This document shows positions 6,917 to 62,916 of a stretch of DNA of 64,000 nt, piece after piece (within the stretch, counting starts at the first letter, position 1; every line of letters begins with the position of its first letter). The DNA lies in NCBI RefSeq assembly GCF_025136295.1, contig NZ_CP062788.1:1643001-1707000 (forward strand), written 5' to 3'. The stretch is from Aestuariispira ectoiniformans (GTDB lineage: Bacteria > Pseudomonadota > Alphaproteobacteria > UBA8366 > Aestuariispiraceae). Below the pieces are notes generated by a model. It was given only the letters and a program-made list of their open reading frames with translations. It was not told the origin of the DNA and ran no database searches. The position numbers and the translations under genes are program-made.

Positions 6917-7699
6917 ATGCTTAAGGGTAAAGTCGCAGTTGTAACCGGGTCGACCAGCGGTATCGGGCTTGCCATGGCCAAGGCGTTGGCGGGGCAGGGG
7001 TGCAACATCATGTTGAACGGCCTGGGCGATGTGGCGGCAATCGAGGCGACACGCAAGGCCTTGGCCGATGAGACCGGCGTCGAGGTTGCGTTCAACGGCG
7101 CGGATATGTCCAAGCCCGACCAGATCAGGGGGCTGATCCAGGAGACGGCGGACCGTTTTGGCGGCCTGCATATTCTGGTCAATAATGCAGGGATTCAGTA
7201 TACCTCCTCCATCGAAGAATTCCCGGAGGATCGCTGGGATGCGATTATCGCGATCAACCTGTCGTCGGCGTTCCATTCCACAAAGGCCGCATTGCCGCAT
7301 ATGAAGAAGGCTGGCTGGGGCCGGGTCATCAATACCGCCTCTGTGCATGGTCTGGTTGCCAGCATTCATAAAGCCGCCTATGTGGCGGCGAAACACGGCA
7401 TCATGGGGCTGACCAAGGTGACGGCGCTGGAAACGGCGGAAGACCCGATCACCTGCAACGCTATCTGCCCCGGTTGGGTGCGGACCGAACTGGTTGAAAA
7501 ACAGATCGCTGCACGGGCCGGTGAGGCCGGATTGAGTGTTGAAGACGCTGCCCGCCAGTTGGTGGAGGAAAAACAACCCTCTAAAACCTTTGTGACGCCG
7601 GAAATGCTGGCGCAGGTGGCGGTATTCCTCTGTTCCGATGCGGCATCGCAGATGACTGGCGTCAGTGTCCCGGTCGATGGCGGCTGGACTGCACAGTAG
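6917..7699 (+). CDS. bdhA: D-3-hydroxybutyrate dehydrogenase
   Basis: 260 residues, the exact family length. A classical short-chain dehydrogenase with the NAD-binding motif GSTSGIG at 11-17, NNAG at 89-92 and the catalytic tetrad N114, S142, Y155, K159. The stretch after TASVHGLVASIHKAAY and the C-terminal lid match 3-hydroxybutyrate dehydrogenases. The enzyme interconverts D-3-hydroxybutyrate and acetoacetate, linking polyhydroxybutyrate breakdown to central metabolism. The ATG at 6917 is chosen over the one 18 bases upstream because AGGGAG lies just before it and all family members begin there. It is followed by the tandem small-RNA genes. Confidence 0.93.
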   Translation: MLKGKVAVVTGSTSGIGLAMAKALAGQGCNIMLNGLGDVAAIEATRKALADETGVEVAFNGADMSKPDQIRGLIQETADRFGGLHILVNNAGIQYTSSIEEFPEDRWDAIIAINLSSAFHSTKAALPHMKKAGWGRVINTASVHGLVASIHKAAYVAAKHGIMGLTKVTALETAEDPITCNAICPGWVRTELVEKQIAARAGEAGLSVEDAARQLVEEKQPSKTFVTPEMLAQVAVFLCSDAASQMTGVSVPVDGGWTAQ

Positions 7700-7735
7700 A
7701 AAAATATAATAAAAACATGGGGTTGCCGGGTGGAT

Positions 7736-7751
7736 TGCAAATTAATTTGCA
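7736..7751. promoter_or_regulatory. Perfect 16-bp palindrome
   Basis: TGCAAATTAATTTGCA is a perfect dyad four bases before the conserved promoter box of the first small-RNA gene. It has no counterpart in front of the second copy. It could be an operator that regulates only copy 1; this is inference. Confidence 0.4.
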
Positions 7752-7754
7752 GTG

Positions 7755-7786
7755 TTAACGCCTTGTTAGGGAAGATAGGTTACAAA
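7755..7786 (+). promoter_or_regulatory. Promoter of small-RNA copy 1 with CtrA-like box
   Basis: The 17-bp block at 7755-7771 (TTAACGCCTTGTTAGGG) is shared, apart from two pyrimidine changes, with the second copy. It contains TTAA-N7-TTAG, close to the TTAA-N7-TTAA site of the cell-cycle regulator CtrA. A -10-like TACAAA is at 7781-7786 and the conserved RNA begins at about 7790. The spacing from box to conserved RNA is 18 bases in both copies, so the block overlaps the -35 position. Confidence 0.55.
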
Positions 7787-7789
7787 TTA

Positions 7790-7893
7790 GTTGTCTACCC
7801 CAAGGCCCAATTCCCACCCTTACCCATTGGGCCGAGTGACACTCTAAGACCCCTGTTCGACTGAGCCGCTTTACCCAAAGCGGCTCTTTTTTT
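7790..7893 (+). ncRNA. Candidate small RNA, tandem copy 1
   Basis: About 104 nt, ending in an intrinsic terminator. It begins GTTGTCTACCCCAAGGCCCA, identical in copy 2. Hairpin 1 pairs 7804-7811 (GGCCCAAT) with 7826-7833 (ATTGGGCC) around a 14-nt C-rich loop containing CCCACCC. A 21-nt segment at 7838-7858, identical in copy 2, links to the terminator stem GAGCCGCTTT / AAAGCGGCTC (loop ACCC) followed by seven T. No open reading frame explains the conservation. The C-rich loop could pair with G-rich ribosome binding sites of target mRNAs, as in other alphaproteobacterial trans-acting sRNAs. I cannot assign it to a named family. Confidence 0.8.
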
Positions 7894-7939
7894 GCCTGTA
7901 TCGGGCCAATGAAATTATCCTGTAGAATGCTATCTTTCT

Positions 7940-7971
7940 TTAACGTCCTGTTAGGGTTTTCATCCTATAGT
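7940..7971 (+). promoter_or_regulatory. Promoter of small-RNA copy 2 with CtrA-like box
   Basis: The block at 7940-7956 (TTAACGTCCTGTTAGGG) repeats the copy 1 box with two changes and again has TTAA-N7-TTAG. A -10-like TATAGT lies at 7966-7971 and the conserved RNA start is at about 7975, the same geometry as copy 1. The sequence between box and RNA start is otherwise unlike copy 1 except at the -10. Confidence 0.55.
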
Positions 7972-7974
7972 GAG

Positions 7975-8075
7975 GTTGTCTACCCCAAGGCCCATACCCA
8001 CCCCTTACTATATGGGCCGAAGCGACACTCTAAGACCCCTGTTCAACTAGAGCCGCAATTTGCGGCTCTTTTTCT
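7975..8075 (+). ncRNA. Candidate small RNA, tandem copy 2
   Basis: About 101 nt, 185 bases downstream of copy 1. Hairpin 1 pairs 7989-7996 (GGCCCATA) with 8011-8018 (TATGGGCC); relative to copy 1 two stem positions change together on both sides, so pairing is kept by compensatory change. The 14-nt loop again has CCCACCC. The identical 21-nt linker is at 8024-8044. The terminator pairs AGAGCCGC with GCGGCTCT and is followed by TTTTT. The terminator also lies 20 bases past the stop codon of the opposite gene at 8092. Confidence 0.8.
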
Positions 8076-8091
8076 TTGTTGAACCAAGTGG

Positions 8092-10539
8092 TCAGGACTT
8101 CACCCGCAGGCTTTTCGGGTCATAAAGCGGGGACAGGCTGGCCCTGGCCGTAAAGCGCTGTCCGGCGACTTCGATTTCGAACGTCCCATCATCTACAAAG
8201 GCCTTGTCGATGATAGCCCCGTCCTGGCTGACATAGCCCAGGCCAATCGCGCTGCCGATGCTGTGCCCATAACTGCCGGAGGTCAGGCGTCCGACGATCT
8301 CGCCATTCCGCCAGATCGGCTCATCGTGGTAGAGCATGGGTGCCGTATCCTCCAACTGGAACTGGACCAGACGCCGGGTCAGGCCATCGGCCTTTTGTCG
8401 TTCCAGAACCTCGCGCCCGATGAAGGGGATATTGGTTTTCAATTTACAGGCAAAACCCAATCCCGCCTCCAGGGGTGTATCCTCGTCAGCAATATCATGA
8501 CCCCAGTGGCGGTAACCCTTCTCTGACCGAAGCGAGTCGATTGCATGGGTGCCACAAAGTTTCAGGTCGAAGGCCTTGCCAGCCTCCACGATGGCATCGA
8601 AGACATGGGTGGCAAACTCTGTAGGGATATACAGCTCCCAGCCCAATTCCCCGACGTATGTGATGCGATGGGCGCGGACCCGGGCCATGGCGAGGTCGAT
8701 TTCACGGGCCGTGCCGAAGGGGAAGGCCTCATTGCCGAGGTCGGTATCGGTTAACGTTTGCAGCAGGGCGCGGCTGTTCGGGCCCATGACACTGAGGACG
8801 GCTTCGCCGGAGGTTACATCGGTGACGGTGACAAAAGCATCGCCTGGAATATGGCGTTTCAGCCAGGTCAGGTCGCGGGTTGCAACCGCCGTGCCGGTGA
8901 CGACCAGATAGCGGTCATGGGCAAGGCGTGTGACGGTAAGGTCCGCTTCGATCCCGCCGCGCTCGTTCAGCCATTGGCTATAGACGATCCGGCCCACCGG
9001 CACGTCCACGTTATTTGCGCAGATAGTCTGCAGCACGGCCTCGGCGTCGCGGCCCTGGACCATAAATTTGGCGAAGCTGCTTTGATCGAACAGGCCCACA
9101 TTGTTGCGTACGGCCAGATGCTCGTCGCGCCAATGGGGGAACCAGCTTGCCTTGCCCCAGCTATAGTCATATTCCGGTTTTACACCATCTGGCGCAAACC
9201 AGCCCGGGCGCTCCCAACAAGCACTTTCGGCAAAGCAGGCCCCCTGCGCCGCCAACCGGTCGTGCAGTGGGGTTTTACGGATATTGCGGGCGGTTTCCGC
9301 CTGCAGATGCGGCCAATGCATGCCGTAGAGGCGGCCCAGGGATTCCGTTGAGCGTGTCTTGAGATAGCGTGGGTTAGCCTGGAAAGCGGCCATGCGGCGG
9401 ATGTCCACATCCCACAGATCCATGGGCGGATGGCCGTTGATGATCCATTCGGCGAGCGCCTTGCCTGCGCCGCCTGCGGACTGGAAGCCGGTGGAGTTGA
9501 AGCCCGCCGACACGTAGTAGTTTTTGAGATTGGGCGCTTCGCCCAGAAGGTAACGGTTATCCGGGGTGAAGCTTTCCGGGCCGTTGAAGAATTTCCGAAT
9601 GCCGACCGATTGCAGGGCGGGCACGCGCTGCATGGCCTGTTCAAGGATCGGCATGAAATGTTCCATGTCTTCCGGCAATTCGTCGAAACAGAAGTCTTCC
9701 GGAATACCGTCGGCCCCGCCCCAGGGCTTGGACCGGTATTCGAAGCCGCCGATCAGGAGCTTGCCGGTATCTTCCTTGTAATAGGTGCGGTCGTCGGGCA
9801 CGCGAAGGACGGGCAGGTCGCTTGGAACATCCGCCATGTCCTCTGTGATAATATAGAAATGCTCACAGCCATGCAGGGGAATATCAACGCCGCTCTTTCG
9901 ACCAAGTTCCCAGCCCCACAGGCCGCCGCAGTTGACCACATGGCGCGCCATGATGGTTCCCTGTTCCGTCTCGACGCCGACGGCGCGGTCGTCTTCGGTC
10001 AGGACATTGAGGACCTTTACGTTTTCCAGCAGTTGCGCGCCATACATACGCGCACCCTTGGCCAGCGCCGTGGTGGTGTCGATGGGGTTACCCTGCCCGT
10101 CACCGGGGATATAGATGCCGCCGACGGCATCGTCCACGTTCAACAGCGGCCAACGTTCTTTGGCCTCTTCCGCACGCAATTCCTGGATGTCCAGGCCGAA
10201 AGTACGGGCGGTGGACATCTGCCGGCGCAACTCCTCCATCCGGCCGTCATGGGTGGACACCGTGACTGAGCCGTTTTGTTTGATGCCTGTCGGTTGTCCG
10301 GTCTCCTCCTCCAACTGATAGTAGAGGTCCGCGGTGTAGCGGGCCAGCAGGGTCATGTTGAGGGAACTGCGCAATTGTCCGATCAGGCCCGCTGCATGCC
10401 AGGTCGTACCGCATGTCAGTTGCTTGCGTTCCAACAGGACCACATCCGATTGTCCCATTTTGGCGAGATGATAGGCGAGCGAGCAGCCGACAACGCCGCC
10501 CCCGATTATGACGACTTGTGCTTGCTTGGGCAGGCTCAT
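8092..10539 (-). CDS. FAD-dependent dehydrogenase, dimethylglycine/sarcosine dehydrogenase family
   Basis: 815 residues with the four-part layout of dimethylglycine and sarcosine dehydrogenases: an N-terminal DAO domain with the FAD motif IIGGGVVGCSLAYHL (about 11-25), the TWHAAGL sequence whose histidine carries covalent FAD in characterised relatives, a central FAO_M domain, and a GcvT-like folate-binding half with its C-terminal barrel. The family oxidatively demethylates N-methylated glycines and passes the one-carbon unit to tetrahydrofolate. The exact substrate is uncertain. It is divergent from a LysR regulator 102 bases away, which probably controls it. Confidence 0.9.
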   Translation of the reverse strand: MSLPKQAQVVIIGGGVVGCSLAYHLAKMGQSDVVLLERKQLTCGTTWHAAGLIGQLRSSLNMTLLARYTADLYYQLEEETGQPTGIKQNGSVTVSTHDGRMEELRRQMSTARTFGLDIQELRAEEAKERWPLLNVDDAVGGIYIPGDGQGNPIDTTTALAKGARMYGAQLLENVKVLNVLTEDDRAVGVETEQGTIMARHVVNCGGLWGWELGRKSGVDIPLHGCEHFYIITEDMADVPSDLPVLRVPDDRTYYKEDTGKLLIGGFEYRSKPWGGADGIPEDFCFDELPEDMEHFMPILEQAMQRVPALQSVGIRKFFNGPESFTPDNRYLLGEAPNLKNYYVSAGFNSTGFQSAGGAGKALAEWIINGHPPMDLWDVDIRRMAAFQANPRYLKTRSTESLGRLYGMHWPHLQAETARNIRKTPLHDRLAAQGACFAESACWERPGWFAPDGVKPEYDYSWGKASWFPHWRDEHLAVRNNVGLFDQSSFAKFMVQGRDAEAVLQTICANNVDVPVGRIVYSQWLNERGGIEADLTVTRLAHDRYLVVTGTAVATRDLTWLKRHIPGDAFVTVTDVTSGEAVLSVMGPNSRALLQTLTDTDLGNEAFPFGTAREIDLAMARVRAHRITYVGELGWELYIPTEFATHVFDAIVEAGKAFDLKLCGTHAIDSLRSEKGYRHWGHDIADEDTPLEAGLGFACKLKTNIPFIGREVLERQKADGLTRRLVQFQLEDTAPMLYHDEPIWRNGEIVGRLTSGSYGHSIGSAIGLGYVSQDGAIIDKAFVDDGTFEIEVAGQRFTARASLSPLYDPKSLRVKS

Positions 10540-11555: not shown

Positions 11556-11597
11556 GGCAAAGGCGTGTAAAAAAAATGTCACCTTTGCCATTTTTTT
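11556..11597 (+). terminator. Terminator-like hairpin after the LysR gene
   Basis: GGCAAAGG (11556-11563) pairs with CCTTTGCC (11582-11589) and is followed by A and seven T. The loop is long (18 nt, A-rich). It lies 53 bases past the LysR stop codon. Confidence 0.65.
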
Positions 11598-11882
11598 ACT
11601 TTGACGTCTCAATCAGGTGCGGCTAACGTTCGTTCCGCAGGTAAGCAAGTTGAACAGGGGAACGGAAAATCGGACGGGGGAAAAATCCGAATTCCGTATG
11701 TTCAAAAAAGGCTTGAGGGAGGGGTCGCTACGGCGACCCCTTTACTTCTTTCAGGGGATAGCCAGGGCGCCCCTCTTTCTCAAAATCCCAAGCTTTCGAA
11801 GTTTATTATCGGTTGAGCGTGAGCAAGACCGGCGTTACCTTTTCCGCAATGCGATAAAGAGAACAAGGGACGCTGGGGAGAC
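11598..11882 (+). promoter_or_regulatory. Structured leader region of metY
   Basis: About 285 bases with no gene. Three foldable blocks precede metY: a short stem TGCGG/CCGCA near 11617-11640; a larger one pairing ACGGAA with TTCCGT (about 11661-11697) with an inner CGGA/TCCG stem; and a strong hairpin GGGGTCGC-TACG-GCGACCCC at 11721-11740 followed by TTTACTTCTTTC. The order (folded aptamer-like domain, then terminator-like hairpin, then the gene 140 bases on) is that of an attenuator or riboswitch. I could not match it to SAM-II, SAM-I, cobalamin or SAM/SAH consensus from memory. Confidence 0.45.
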
Positions 11883-13184
11883 ATGGTCAAACCCGATTTT
11901 TTGAATTTCAATACGCTGGCGCTGCACGCGGGGCAGCAGCCGGACCCTGCCACAGGCGCGCGCGCCGTACCGATCTATCAGACCACATCCTATGTGTTCG
12001 ATAGTACGGAACATGCCGCCGCATTGTTCAACCTGGAACAGGCGGGCCACATTTATTCCCGTATTTCCAATCCCACCGTTGCGGTGCTGGAGGAAAGGCT
12101 GGCGGCCCTTGAAGGCGGTGTCGCTGCTATCTGCACGGCAAGCGGCCATGCGGCGCTGTTCCTCGGCATTTCCACATTGATGGGGCAGGGCGGCCATATT
12201 GTGGCGTCCCGGGCGCTTTATGGTGGCTCCATCAACCTGTTCACCCATACCCTGCCGCGCTTTGGGATCGAAACCACCTTTGTCGACCCGCGGGACCCGG
12301 AAGCCTTCAAGGCGGCGATCCGTCCGGAAACGCGGCTGGTCTTTGGTGAGTTGCTGGGCAATCCGGGGCTGGAAGTGCTGGATATCGAGGCCGTGTCCAA
12401 GGTTGCCCATGATGCCGGGGTGCCGTTGATGATCGATGCCACCTTCAACACGCCCTACCTCTGTAAGCCATTTGATTATGGTGCGGATTTCACGGTTCAC
12501 TCGGCCACCAAATGGCTGGGCGGGCATGGTGTTGCCATGGGCGGTGTACTGGTGGATTCCGGTCGCTTCGACTGGTTCGCCAATGACAAGTTCCCGACCA
12601 TGACGGAACCCTATGCCGGCTATCACGGTATCGTCTTTGCGGAAGAATACGGCCCTGCCGGTTTCATCATGCGGGCGCGTGCGGAAGGCCTACGCGATTT
12701 CGGTGCGGCGATGAGCCCGGCCAATGCCTTCTATCTGTTGCAGGGGATCGAGACCCTTCCGGTGCGTATGGACCGCCACGTGTCGAACGCGGCGAAGATT
12801 GCGGAATTCCTGGCCGGTCATGAAACGGTCGCCTGGGTGAACTATCCGGGGCTGGAAAGCCATCCGGATCACAAACTGGCACAGAAATATCTGCCGAAGG
12901 GGCCGGGCTCCGTTCTATCCTTCGGTGTGAAGGGTGGCCGCAAGGCGGGTGCCAAATTCATTGAAAGCCTGAAGGTCTTCAGTCATCTCGCCAATGTGGG
13001 CGACGCGAAATCGCTTGTCCTGCATCCGGCCAGCACCACCCATCAACAGCTTTCCGCTGAACAGTTGACGGCAGCCGGTATCGGTGAAGACCTGATCCGC
13101 ATGTCCGTCGGTCTGGAAGATGTGGATGACCTGATTGTTGATTTGAGCAAGGCCCTGCGGGCCGCATCGAAGGTGGCCGGCTGA
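11883..13184 (+). CDS. metY: O-acetylhomoserine sulfhydrylase / aminocarboxypropyltransferase
   Basis: 433 residues of the Cys/Met metabolism PLP family. The N-terminal FNTLALHAGQQPDPATGARA and PIYQTTSYVFDSTEHAA are the family signature and the PLP lysine is in HSATKWLGGHG. Length and the long C-terminal half (YPGLESHPDH) fit the MetY branch, which makes homocysteine from O-acetylhomoserine and sulfide, rather than the shorter cystathionine enzymes. The ATG follows GCTGGGGAG. Its stop codon overlaps the start of the next gene (ATGA-type overlap at 13182-13186), so the hydrolase is translationally coupled. A structured leader precedes it. Confidence 0.93.
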   Translation: MVKPDFLNFNTLALHAGQQPDPATGARAVPIYQTTSYVFDSTEHAAALFNLEQAGHIYSRISNPTVAVLEERLAALEGGVAAICTASGHAALFLGISTLMGQGGHIVASRALYGGSINLFTHTLPRFGIETTFVDPRDPEAFKAAIRPETRLVFGELLGNPGLEVLDIEAVSKVAHDAGVPLMIDATFNTPYLCKPFDYGADFTVHSATKWLGGHGVAMGGVLVDSGRFDWFANDKFPTMTEPYAGYHGIVFAEEYGPAGFIMRARAEGLRDFGAAMSPANAFYLLQGIETLPVRMDRHVSNAAKIAEFLAGHETVAWVNYPGLESHPDHKLAQKYLPKGPGSVLSFGVKGGRKAGAKFIESLKVFSHLANVGDAKSLVLHPASTTHQQLSAEQLTAAGIGEDLIRMSVGLEDVDDLIVDLSKALRAASKVAG

Positions 13185-37472: not shown

Positions 37473-37491
37473 TTAAAGGGCAGGGCGTATG

Positions 37492-37650
37492 CTGCCCTGT
37501 GCGTGAGCTGTTTCTATCCCGGGGGCTACAATCTTTCCTCTAGGGAACTGCCTCTGTTGAGGTTTAGGCCTCGATATCGCGGTGCCCACCTGGTTTACCA
37601 GGCTCCGGAGGATACAGATACAGACACGGCAGGCGCGGCTGCGTCCTTAT
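37492..37650 (+). ncRNA. ssrS: 6S RNA
   Basis: A ~140-160 nt RNA region between zapA and the 5-FTHF cyclo-ligase gene, the conserved place of ssrS. The ends pair (CTGCC..TGT with ACA..GGCAG, about 37492-37500 with 37620-37632), there is an internal, mostly helical arm and a hairpin-rich middle (CTCTGTTGAGG; ACCTGGTTTACCAGG). 6S binds sigma70 RNA polymerase and represses it in stationary phase. Exact ends are not determined from sequence alone. Confidence 0.85.
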
Positions 37651-60198: not shown

Positions 60199-62916
60199 AT
60201 GGAAGACGGGTTCTTTCTGATAATAGGTCTGCTATTCCTGGCCGCGCCGATCATGGCCATCGTGGCTTTGGTGCAAATTGGCAAGCTCAAGACCGAGGTG
60301 GCGAACCTTCGGCGGGCCATAGTCATCATGCGTGCCCGCCAGGAGGAGGCTGCTGCGCCTGCTGCTGAGGCACCTGCCCCCGCGGCAGCAGCGACGGTGG
60401 AGGCACCGGCCACTGCCGAGGCGTCGGAAATCCACGCAGAGGTGCGTGAGGAACCTGAACCGGCTGCTGAGACACCCACGCAGGTGGCGCCCGAAGTGGC
60501 TGTCCCGGACGCGGCATGGACGCCGGAAGCCACCCCCCGGGAAGAAAAGAAATCCACCTCATGGCTTGAAGAGGCGCTCGCCTTCCGCTGGCTGGTCTGG
60601 CTGGGTGGGGCGACCTTGGCGCTTGGTGGGATATTCTTCGTGCAATACAGCATGGAACGCGGCCTTATCTCGCCGCTGGTGCGGATTGCCCTTGCGATGG
60701 GTCTGGGCGGCATTCTGGTCTTTGCGGGCGAATGGTTCCGTCGCCGTCCGCTGCGCAAGGCGATTGCAGCCCTGCGCCCGGATTATATTCCCTCCGCGAT
60801 TACGGCCGCCGGTGTTGCGATCCTCTACGGCAGTACTTATGCCGGTTACGCCCTTTATGACATATTTGCCCCGCTGCTGGCCTTTGCCTTCCTGGCTGCC
60901 ATCTCGGTACTGGCTTTGGGGTTGTCGCTGGTGCAGGGGCCGTTGATTGCGGCGTTGGGCGTGGTCGGTGCCTATGTCGTTCCTCTCCTGATTGGCAGCG
61001 ATGAGCCGAGCTACTGGAGCCTGTTCAGTTATCTGACCATCGTGGGCGCGGCAGTCCTGGCAATTGTTCACACGCGCCATTGGTGGAGGGCTGCCTGCTG
61101 TGTCATTGCCGGGTCAGGTCTCTGGTCTGCGATGGCAATGCCTTTCGCGGATGGTCTGGAAGACCTGATTCCGCTCGCAGTCTTCATCCTGCTTGCCTTT
61201 ATCGGGCAGCTATCGCTGCTGAAAACCCTTCCCTTAATTCCGGAAAATCAGAAATGGCAGCGTCCGGCGTTGGTGGTTTTTGTCGCAAGCTGTGTAACGG
61301 CCCTGCTTCTGTTCGCTTTGGGCCTCAGGGAAGAAAACGGGGTTCTGTCACTGGCGGCAATGGCGGTTTTCACCGGAGTGACGATTTTCGCCGCCTGGTC
61401 CACGCCTGCTGTTGAACGCATGGCCCCTGTCCCGGCTGTCATGGGACTTGTCGTTCTGGTCTGCTGGGCTCTGCCGGGGGAGGTTTATCCGTTGGGGTTC
61501 GACGCCATCGGTGTCTTCGGTCGTTTACCAGTCGGCGGGCCAATGGACGATCTGGGAACCTTTCTGGCCTCGGCAGTACTCTTTGCTGTTTTCTTCGGCG
61601 GGGTCGGGCATCTGGCGCTGACCCATGTCCGGCATAAGGGGCTTTGGGCATTGCTGTCCGCGGCTGTTCCGGTCCTGACGTTGGCAATTGTCTATTATCG
61701 CTGCGATGCCTTGATGGTTGACCTGGGTTGGGCCGCGCTTGGCCTTCTTCTGGCGGCCATGGCTGTGGGGCTGGCGACGCGTTTGCACAGGCATCCGCAG
61801 GCCCGCGCGCTGGAAATCGGTGTCGGGCTTTATGCAGTGGCGACGATTGGCGCGATCTCGCTGGCGGCAACCATGACCTTGTCCGAAGTCTGGCTGTCGG
61901 TTGCACTGGCTGTGCAACTGCCTGCGCTTGCCTGGGTCAATGGGCATATCCGACTGCCTTACGGGCGACATGTCGCGCTTGTGGTGGGCGGTATCGTATT
62001 TGTCCGGCTTATCCTGTTGCATACATTCTTTGGCACGACCTTTGACGTACCTGCCAGGACAGCCTGGATCTTCTATGGCTATGGCATTCCAGCCGTTGCC
62101 TATTATCTTGCTGCCCGCTGGTTCCACCAGGAACGGGACAGCATCACCGTGCATTTCCTGGAAAGTTTTGCTGTCGCCGCCGCTGTGCTGACCGTCAGCC
62201 TGGAAATCCGCTATTGGGTGAATGGTGCCCTGATGGTGGAGCGTTATGGTTTGCTGGAACAAAGCCTGCAGTCCGCAAGCTGGCTGGCAAGCGCACTGGG
62301 TTTTTACGTCCGCTACAAGCGTATGCCGCGCCCGGTTTCCTATTGGGGCGCACGTATCCTCGGCCTGATGGCGGTCGTCCAGATCGTGGTTCTGCAGCTT
62401 GTCTTCAATAACCCGCTGTTCACCGGCGAGGAAATCGGCCATTGGCCTGTCGTGAATATTCTGCTTGTGGCCTATGGCGTGTCGGCGGCCTTCGCAGCCC
62501 TGTTTGCATGGCAGGGCTGGAAGGACCGCCGTCCCTGGCTGTTGTGGGGGGCAGGCGGGGCCGCATTGGCGTTGGCCTTCCTCAACCTTACCCTGGAAAT
62601 CAGACACTGGTTCCAGGGGGCTGGCATTCGCTTTGGCGTTGTCGAGGATGCGGAACTCTATACCTATTCCGCCGGTTGGCTGGTTTTTGCGGGATTGCTG
62701 ATGCTGGCCGGTTTCTGGCGTCACCTTCCGGTGTTGAGAAAGGCCGCTCTGGGGATTGTCCTGCTCACAGTAGTGAAGGTCTTTGTTCTGGATATGGCCG
62801 GGCTGACCGGATTGTACCGGGTGGCCTCTTTCATGGGGCTGGGGGCAAGCCTGTTGCTGGTCGGTTTCCTGTATCAGCGGTTTGTCTTGGTTCCTGAGCA
62901 GGCAAAAGCAGACTAG
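60199..62916 (+). CDS. DUF2339 multi-spanning membrane protein
   Basis: 905 residues. A short N-terminal helix and coiled coil (LKTEVANLRRAIVIM), a Pro/Ala/Glu linker (about 50-120), then more than twenty hydrophobic segments to the end. The first core segment, LAFRWLVWLGGATLALGGIF, and AALRPDYIPSAITAAGVAIL match the DUF2339 family, an inner-membrane protein of unknown function. There is no close operon partner. Confidence 0.88.
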   Translation: MEDGFFLIIGLLFLAAPIMAIVALVQIGKLKTEVANLRRAIVIMRARQEEAAAPAAEAPAPAAAATVEAPATAEASEIHAEVREEPEPAAETPTQVAPEVAVPDAAWTPEATPREEKKSTSWLEEALAFRWLVWLGGATLALGGIFFVQYSMERGLISPLVRIALAMGLGGILVFAGEWFRRRPLRKAIAALRPDYIPSAITAAGVAILYGSTYAGYALYDIFAPLLAFAFLAAISVLALGLSLVQGPLIAALGVVGAYVVPLLIGSDEPSYWSLFSYLTIVGAAVLAIVHTRHWWRAACCVIAGSGLWSAMAMPFADGLEDLIPLAVFILLAFIGQLSLLKTLPLIPENQKWQRPALVVFVASCVTALLLFALGLREENGVLSLAAMAVFTGVTIFAAWSTPAVERMAPVPAVMGLVVLVCWALPGEVYPLGFDAIGVFGRLPVGGPMDDLGTFLASAVLFAVFFGGVGHLALTHVRHKGLWALLSAAVPVLTLAIVYYRCDALMVDLGWAALGLLLAAMAVGLATRLHRHPQARALEIGVGLYAVATIGAISLAATMTLSEVWLSVALAVQLPALAWVNGHIRLPYGRHVALVVGGIVFVRLILLHTFFGTTFDVPARTAWIFYGYGIPAVAYYLAARWFHQERDSITVHFLESFAVAAAVLTVSLEIRYWVNGALMVERYGLLEQSLQSASWLASALGFYVRYKRMPRPVSYWGARILGLMAVVQIVVLQLVFNNPLFTGEEIGHWPVVNILLVAYGVSAAFAALFAWQGWKDRRPWLLWGAGGAALALAFLNLTLEIRHWFQGAGIRFGVVEDAELYTYSAGWLVFAGLLMLAGFWRHLPVLRKAALGIVLLTVVKVFVLDMAGLTGLYRVASFMGLGASLLLVGFLYQRFVLVPEQAKAD

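Follow-up and report, generated by a model that had tools for sequence, protein, structure and literature searches.

Tandem small RNA genes of Aestuariispira ectoiniformans with conserved complementarity to the start of a metY leader

Two similar units of about 100 nucleotides stand side by side in a 64,000-nucleotide stretch of Aestuariispira ectoiniformans DNA (contig NZ_CP062788.1, hereafter the window, whose positions are used unless stated otherwise), which raises the question of what these units are and with what they might interact. The original prediction described them as a tandem pair of structured small RNA (sRNA) genes 185 bases apart, and the sequence agrees in every structural detail. 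Copy 1 (7790-7892, with an approximate 5' end) and copy 2 (7975-8073), both on the forward strand, are delimited by their folds, by their start-to-start spacing of 185 and by the sRNA model R1, in copy 1 also by blastn. As described, the first 20 bases (GTTGTCTACCCCAAGGCCCA) and a 21-base linker (GACACTCTAAGACCCCTGTTC) are identical in both copies. Hairpin 1 (7804-7833 in copy 1, 7989-8018 in copy 2; predicted fold and stems written out by hand) has the stem arms GGCCCAAT/ATTGGGCC in copy 1 and GGCCCATA/TATGGGCC in copy 2, i.e. two positions are altered on both sides and all pairs are kept, which is the compensatory change that had been claimed. It encloses a C-rich 14-nt loop that retains CCCACCC in both copies (TCCCACCCTTACCC at 7812-7825, CCCACCCCTTACTA at 7997-8010). 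Each copy ends in its own predicted intrinsic terminator, at about 7863-7893 and 8049-8073, and these are two of the three terminator-like sites found by the terminator scan in 7300-8600, where 1.4 are expected; the scan itself places them at 7863-7886 and 8049-8069. Folding energies amount to -32.4 kcal/mol (z -4.8) for copy 1 and -30.0 kcal/mol (z -4.5) for copy 2, and none of 200 shuffles of either copy was as stable. No listed ORF of at least 60 aa overlaps either unit, as had been noted. The genome holds these two copies only (blastn at E 0.001; R1 at E 0.1); R1 assigns 105.3 bits to copy 1, from which it was built, and 88 bits to copy 2, which is outside its seed. At the level of sequence, a side-by-side pair of small regulatory RNA genes is confirmed, and we infer that both are transcribed. 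Elsewhere in the window, 61520-61593 (forward strand) matches R1 weakly (16.8 bits, E 0.01), and 37486-37645 (forward strand) encodes 6S RNA (RF00013, 59.7 bits).

A scan of 7300-8600 for consensus sigma-70 promoters found none. Read directly from the sequence, both copies carry the box TTAAC-N5-GTTAG, CtrA-box-like (TTAACGCCTTGTTAG at 7755-7769 in copy 1, TTAACGTCCTGTTAG at 7940-7954 in copy 2), and a -10-like hexamer (TACAAA at 7781-7786, TATAGT at 7966-7971) at the same 185-base offset, so that the promoters of identical spacing exist as sequence elements. The pattern TTAACNNNNNGTTAR occurs five times in the genome (4.36 Mb), including the two sites at these copies, and its reversed control matches 14 times, so this pattern by itself shows no enrichment. 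A TTAAC-N6-TTAR box with at most one mismatch, a pattern framed only after promoters of the sRNA genes had been seen, precedes 40 of 44 homologous sRNA genes, versus 2.5 expected in shuffles (consensus TTAACCATTTNTTAG). The CtrA box has the consensus TTAA-N7-TTAA, TTAACCAT, which the sRNA promoter box resembles. CtrA is encoded in the genome (413.9 bits, cut-off 350), and the region upstream of ctrA possesses no box by the same patterns. Both sRNAs would probably be switched on by a CtrA-type activator via the TTAAC-N6-TTAG box, which overlaps the -35 region.

With respect to known families, the sRNA region gave ten Rfam matches up to E 10, all of them below the cut-off of their family. Neither AbcR (alpha-r15) nor alpha-r14 is among these ten, so membership in either is unsupported. 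Of the suggestion that the copies are duplicated trans-acting sRNAs in the manner of AbcR, the tandem sRNA genes are supported (structure, terminators, a conserved box, homologues with changing but paired stems), and the kinship with AbcR is not. GcvB (22.7 bits, cut-off 42, E 0.005) was rejected, its match spanning both copies. The nearest family is BjrC1505 (RF02356), with 32.6 and 19.3 bits on the two copies and a cut-off of 50. The idea of a new family is correct insofar as every Rfam match stays below its cut-off, but taken together the evidence points to far-diverged relatives of BjrC1505.

The BjrC1505 model, searched against 387 genomes of the class, matches in 44 with E <=0.001 and above cut-off in 18, the own genome not among them. 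Thirty loci were fetched and 26 parsed; five of these are situated before metY (G195, G083, G275 and G043, where the match, above cut-off, lies 350-453 bases before metY, and G108, below cut-off), and the first four possess a metY leader with the complementary element described below. For the other 21, the roughly 1.4 kb downstream contains no metY. BjrC1505 also matches, below its cut-off, 7 of 13 sRNA loci scanned outside the family. The best window matches of model R2, which contains no Aestuariispiraceae sequences, are the two copies (22.3 and 18.6 bits), aligned at model positions 73-110 of 110 only, i.e. the 3' arm and terminator and not the 5' half. The copies score below cut-off and R2 reaches arm and terminator only; we therefore regard them as divergent BjrC1505 relatives and not as members by Rfam's rule: with their box, their 3' half and the position before metY in four distant genomes, they look like far-diverged kin of that family. 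The two are arranged in a similar way, with an upstream box, a hairpin, an arm and a terminator of the GAGCCGC type; they differ in the GACGCCUCCCUGUU motif of BjrC1505, which is replaced in our copies, and profile homology is confined to the 3' half. In the accessible portions of the literature searched, BjrC1505 is a table entry (PMC6337395) and no functional study of it was found.

Two observations concern the Rfam models themselves. The RF02356 match to window positions 7933-8075 seems to start ahead of the transcript and to cover the TTAAC box, and the seed of this family may include promoter DNA. The models of suhB (MmgR), SorX and SorY match, below cut-off, the sister sRNAs of other genomes (L180, L199, L192, L156, L198, L184, L174, L179 and L147), covering arm and terminator in the alignment viewed; several alphaproteobacterial sRNA families may share one such 3' module.

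Within Aestuariispiraceae, the sRNA is present in 11 of 13 further genomes (G001-G003 and G005-G012; DNA search of 98 genomes plus inspection), with two copies in G003 and three in G005, amounting to 16 copies including our two. G004 and G013 possess the metY leader, and no sRNA was found beside it. Hairpin 1 was written out by hand for 11 of the 16 copies (G001, G006, G007, G005b and G005c were left out), and all 11 are perfectly paired around a C-rich loop, so stem pairing is kept in these homologues as the original prediction required. Predicted folds of G001, G006, G007 and G005b differ in layout. Full-length fold z values of the 16 copies range from -1.9 to -6.5, the weakest being G002 and G008. 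A nine-sequence family alignment, two rows of which are misaligned in hairpin 1, has changes on both sides at 7 of 14 pairs. On the wide alignment A5, RNAalifold retained only four pairs, all in the terminator, and hairpin 1 is therefore without covariation support at this range; its support comes from the own family, i.e. from the both-sided changes, the fold z values and the hand-written stems.

Searched over 289 genomes of the class, R1 has strong matches only in G000, G003 and G009, none in G004, and no match at all in 228 genomes. Among weak matches read elsewhere, L205 and L206 are BjrC1505 matches above cut-off and L208 is one below; by eye L204 is similar and L207 is not. Six of nine named records hold sRNA loci of the family. 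Named bearers are Pacificispira spongiicola (G010), Hwanghaeella grinnelliae (G002), a Hwanghaeella MAG (G008), Curvivirga aplysinae (G005) and an alphaproteobacterial MAG (G001); Hwanghaeella, Pacificispira and Curvivirga are members of Aestuariispiraceae. The sixth record, titled Mesoflavibacter (CP051228.1, L108), carries the locus of G011, its sRNA scoring 100.3 bits, and is probably a mislabelled alphaproteobacterial genome. The remaining three, from Corynebacterium, Propionibacteriaceae and Chloroflexota, have no R1 match and were left aside.

The pre-terminator stretch ACCCC(C)TGTTCAACT shows stronger conservation than the hairpin, and this arm 3' of the hairpin has a candidate partner that the original prediction had not seen, the leader of metY. 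The arm reads GACCCCTGTTCGACT in copy 1 (7848-7862), with one G-U in the predicted pairing, and GACCCCTGTTCAACT in copy 2 (8034-8048), where 13 bases are exactly complementary to the leader. The complement AAGTTGAACAGGGG has a single mismatch-free site in the 4.36-Mb genome, at 11647-11660 in the metY leader, 3.6 kb away; with up to two mismatches, 34 matches compare with 33 for the control. A further site, AAGTCGAACAGGGG at genome position 3021940, is complementary to the copy 1 arm, looks coding by eye and was taken as chance. The leader, on the forward strand throughout, comprises a presumed promoter read from the sequence (TTGACG, 17 nt, TAACGT; 11601-11629), comparable TTGAC promoters being visible by eye at this position in relatives, the element GCAAGTTGAACAGGGG (11645-11660), defined by its complementarity to the sRNA arms and its conservation, and a terminator-like hairpin with T-rich tail (11720-11745; sequence and predicted fold) in the gap before metY (11883-13184; O-acetylhomoserine aminocarboxypropyltransferase, NF006004, 761.7 bits, cut-off 636). 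It looks like a transcription unit of its own, equipped with promoter and terminator and followed by metY. Up to E 10, 11590-11900 has no riboswitch match, and a SAM riboswitch as metY leader was rejected, two weak sRNA models being the only matches up to that value. The predicted unpaired fraction is 0.80 and 0.87 for the two arms and 0.44 for the leader element, which is more paired than not; over 28 outside pairs, the means are 0.61 for both arm and element.

GCAAGTTGAACAGGGG is found in all 13 relatives of the family, in 11 of them exactly and in G005 and G007 with a single A-to-G exchange, by which a G-U pair is retained. In 12 of the 13 it lies before metY, 181-334 bases ahead of the metY motif. 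The exception is G005 (L079, 1500-2467), in which the element precedes a hydrolase gene, 43% identical over 240 aa to the one found behind metY in the window, and metY seems to be gone from that place, as if the leader had outlived metY and had a use of its own. In nine relatives (G001, G002, G005, G006 and G008-G012), roughly 130-260 bases separate the sRNA arm from the element downstream of it; elsewhere the distance is 3.6 kb (own genome), 2 kb (G007) or 4-7 kb (G003).

Outside the family, the element occurs within 3 edits before the best metY orthologue in 12 of 12 genomes, in 11 of them within 420 bases and in L155 at about 600; G267 and G396, which have more distant matches only, were left out of this set. 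G070 belongs to an order in which 35 of 50 genomes yielded a metY orthologue at E 1e-190, and the element is present in 29 of the 30 loci read (L177 and L196 with 3 edits). A sister sRNA with the arm GCCTCCCTGTTAACTTGCC or a variant stands just upstream in 26 of these 30; of the rest, L173 is cut by the contig end and L155, L176 and L177 have no sister sRNA (L148 and L155 are counted in both outside sets). In most of this order, a second helix GCCUC/GAGGC extends the pairing to about 20 bp. By eye, the sister sRNA before metY has lost its arm in L152 and L154 (G170 and G321; CCTCCCTTCC...), with the leader element kept.

The element is located at the presumed start site and its GTTSAAC is partly palindromic, as would suit an operator or start-site signal conserved for reasons of its own, with the complementarity as a by-product. 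We regard this as very improbable, since many of the single changes in the element are A-to-G and keep G-U pairs, the second helix is retained outside the element in most of G070's order, and cognate duplexes are better than permuted ones. The last point was quantified on 44 sRNA-leader pairs (16 of Aestuariispiraceae, 27 of G070's order, one of G158), for which cognate duplexes average -31.2 and permuted duplexes -26.7 kcal/mol, ancestry uncorrected. With one pair per genus (21), the values are -32.1 versus -27.1, and 0 of 20000 permutations are as good, again without correction for ancestry. These two results mostly reflect the split of Aestuariispiraceae versus the rest. Outside the family, P is 0.005 for 14 genera and 0.0003 for all 28 pairs, likewise uncorrected for ancestry; inside it, the near-constancy of leader and arm leaves P at 0.21 (7 genera). 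Against letter-shuffled leaders, the real energy is reached by 0 of 300 in 19 of the 21 pairs, by 3 of 300 in L196 and by 1 of 300 in L197.

Individual double changes are a better sign of pairing than the permutation tests. The L196 leader GTGGACAGG faces CCTGTCC in its sRNA, and the G043 leader CGAGTTC faces GAACTCG. In G070 and G335 the elements are one base shorter in leader and sRNA alike, with one A-G mismatch kept in G335. Counter-examples in length are L194 and L195 (15-nt arm, 14-nt element) and G003 (14-nt arm, 15-nt element), and arms of the L175/L178/L179 type need a bulge to pair with the leader.

A second sRNA also has a claim on the leader. It consists of ACGTCTCCCAGACGTGAAGCCTCCCTGTTCAACTTGCC plus a terminator, is present in two copies on the minus strand of the genome (4057374-4057389 and 4059567-4059582; L051 and L052) and shares the CCCTGTTCAACTTG arm with the tandem pair. 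No Rfam family scores above cut-off on its loci scanned, and in the two own loci only the SorY and SorX models touch it, below their cut-offs. Its predicted pairing with the metY leader spans 16 bases with one G-U. It was found in 12 of 13 relatives, and its exact 16-base pattern, searched in 387 genomes, adds 15 others from 7 families, among them some in which metY has no sister sRNA in view. It could accordingly be the true partner, the arm of the tandem pair being similar through a common target class. This appears unlikely: where the leader changed in length (G070 and G335), the second sRNA kept its 15-nt arm (L124 and L126), but the metY-adjacent sRNA has the shorter arm.

Each sRNA of the tandem pair would combine a C-rich loop on its hairpin with an arm that is mostly single-stranded and directly precedes the terminator. 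This arm, ACCCCUGUU in our copies, is similar to an anti-Shine-Dalgarno sequence; most relatives from other families have CCUCCCUGUU instead, with CCUCCC versus GGGAGG. The metY transcript would start with the complement of this arm and then reach an intrinsic terminator; a short leader RNA would therefore pair with the arm over 13-20 bp. Such a leader would titrate the sRNA as a decoy transcribed nearby, and transcription of the metY unit would tune the sRNA, or the same pairing could act on the leader itself.

The latter alternative implies that the sRNAs control metY directly, pairing with the leader altering its stability or terminator read-through, and that a CtrA-type signal sets homocysteine synthesis. 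It draws on the same conserved pairing over the first 15-20 leader bases and on the terminator-like hairpin between element and metY in the leaders read, next to which the 5' element is brought back (predicted fold in the own genome and G006, by eye in G003 and G008). The pairing site, however, is situated roughly 105-425 nt before metY (605-632 in L155), no conserved antiterminator is seen by eye, and G005 keeps the element where metY is absent, all of which makes direct control, the main rival, rather improbable. A decoy is the likeliest role because the leader start, which mimics a Shine-Dalgarno sequence, lies far from the metY start, a terminator follows it, and it survives in G005 without metY. 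The whole reading, i.e. duplicated, divergent BjrC1505 relatives driven by a CtrA-type box and paired with a terminated metY leader, most likely as decoy, we judge about evenly balanced between right and wrong.

Sponges derived from leaders or mRNAs are known in SroC and RbsZ. The metY leader would likewise be a short RNA of a metabolic transcript complementary to an sRNA, here as a prediction from sequence; a difference is that sponge candidate and sRNA adjoin in several families. Conserved complementarity of sponge and sRNA seed, as expected of such pairs, is found here. Another methionine-gene leader with a terminator, that of metZ in Sinorhizobium meliloti, terminates and yields the short RNA RZ, according to the portion of the source available (PMC9373788); it is a SAM-II riboswitch, but ours has no riboswitch match up to E 10. 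AbcR1 and AbcR2 of S. meliloti are described, in the text available, as lying in tandem between SMc01226 and lsrB (PMC7143759). Tandem arrangement is common to both systems, but our copies have no ar15 match, score 12.4 bits with suhB (cut-off 41) and have other neighbours and another promoter box. CcnA of Caulobacter, as far as the consulted part of its description goes, is a CtrA-controlled sRNA whose CCCC loop acts on GGGG in 5' UTRs (PMC8959179). It differs in its 182 nt and its place at the replication origin from our sRNAs of about 100 nt, whose predicted pairing with ctrA does not exceed shuffles: a CcnA-like action on ctrA was rejected, as 26 of 100 and 68 of 100 shuffles were as good as the sRNA 5' halves against the ctrA 5' region.

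The new point is a complementarity of sRNA 3' arms to the start of a metY transcript, conserved in many related bacteria and suggestive of a regulator coupled to its decoy or target. A more far-reaching version, tentative and in our estimate rather less probable than not, would see an old alphaproteobacterial circuit of CtrA-controlled anti-Shine-Dalgarno sRNAs and a terminated metY leader, neighbours in several families, in which an sRNA-decoy pair links the cell cycle to methionine supply and the second sRNA is captured by the same leader. For the little-studied alphaproteobacterial sRNA family BjrC1505, the locus provides a candidate partner and a testable mechanism, and it draws attention to a metabolic leader in which, judged by eye, the conserved part is complementary to sRNA arms. 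Should this reading hold, sRNAs under CtrA-type promoters would be tuned by the transcription of a methionine gene.
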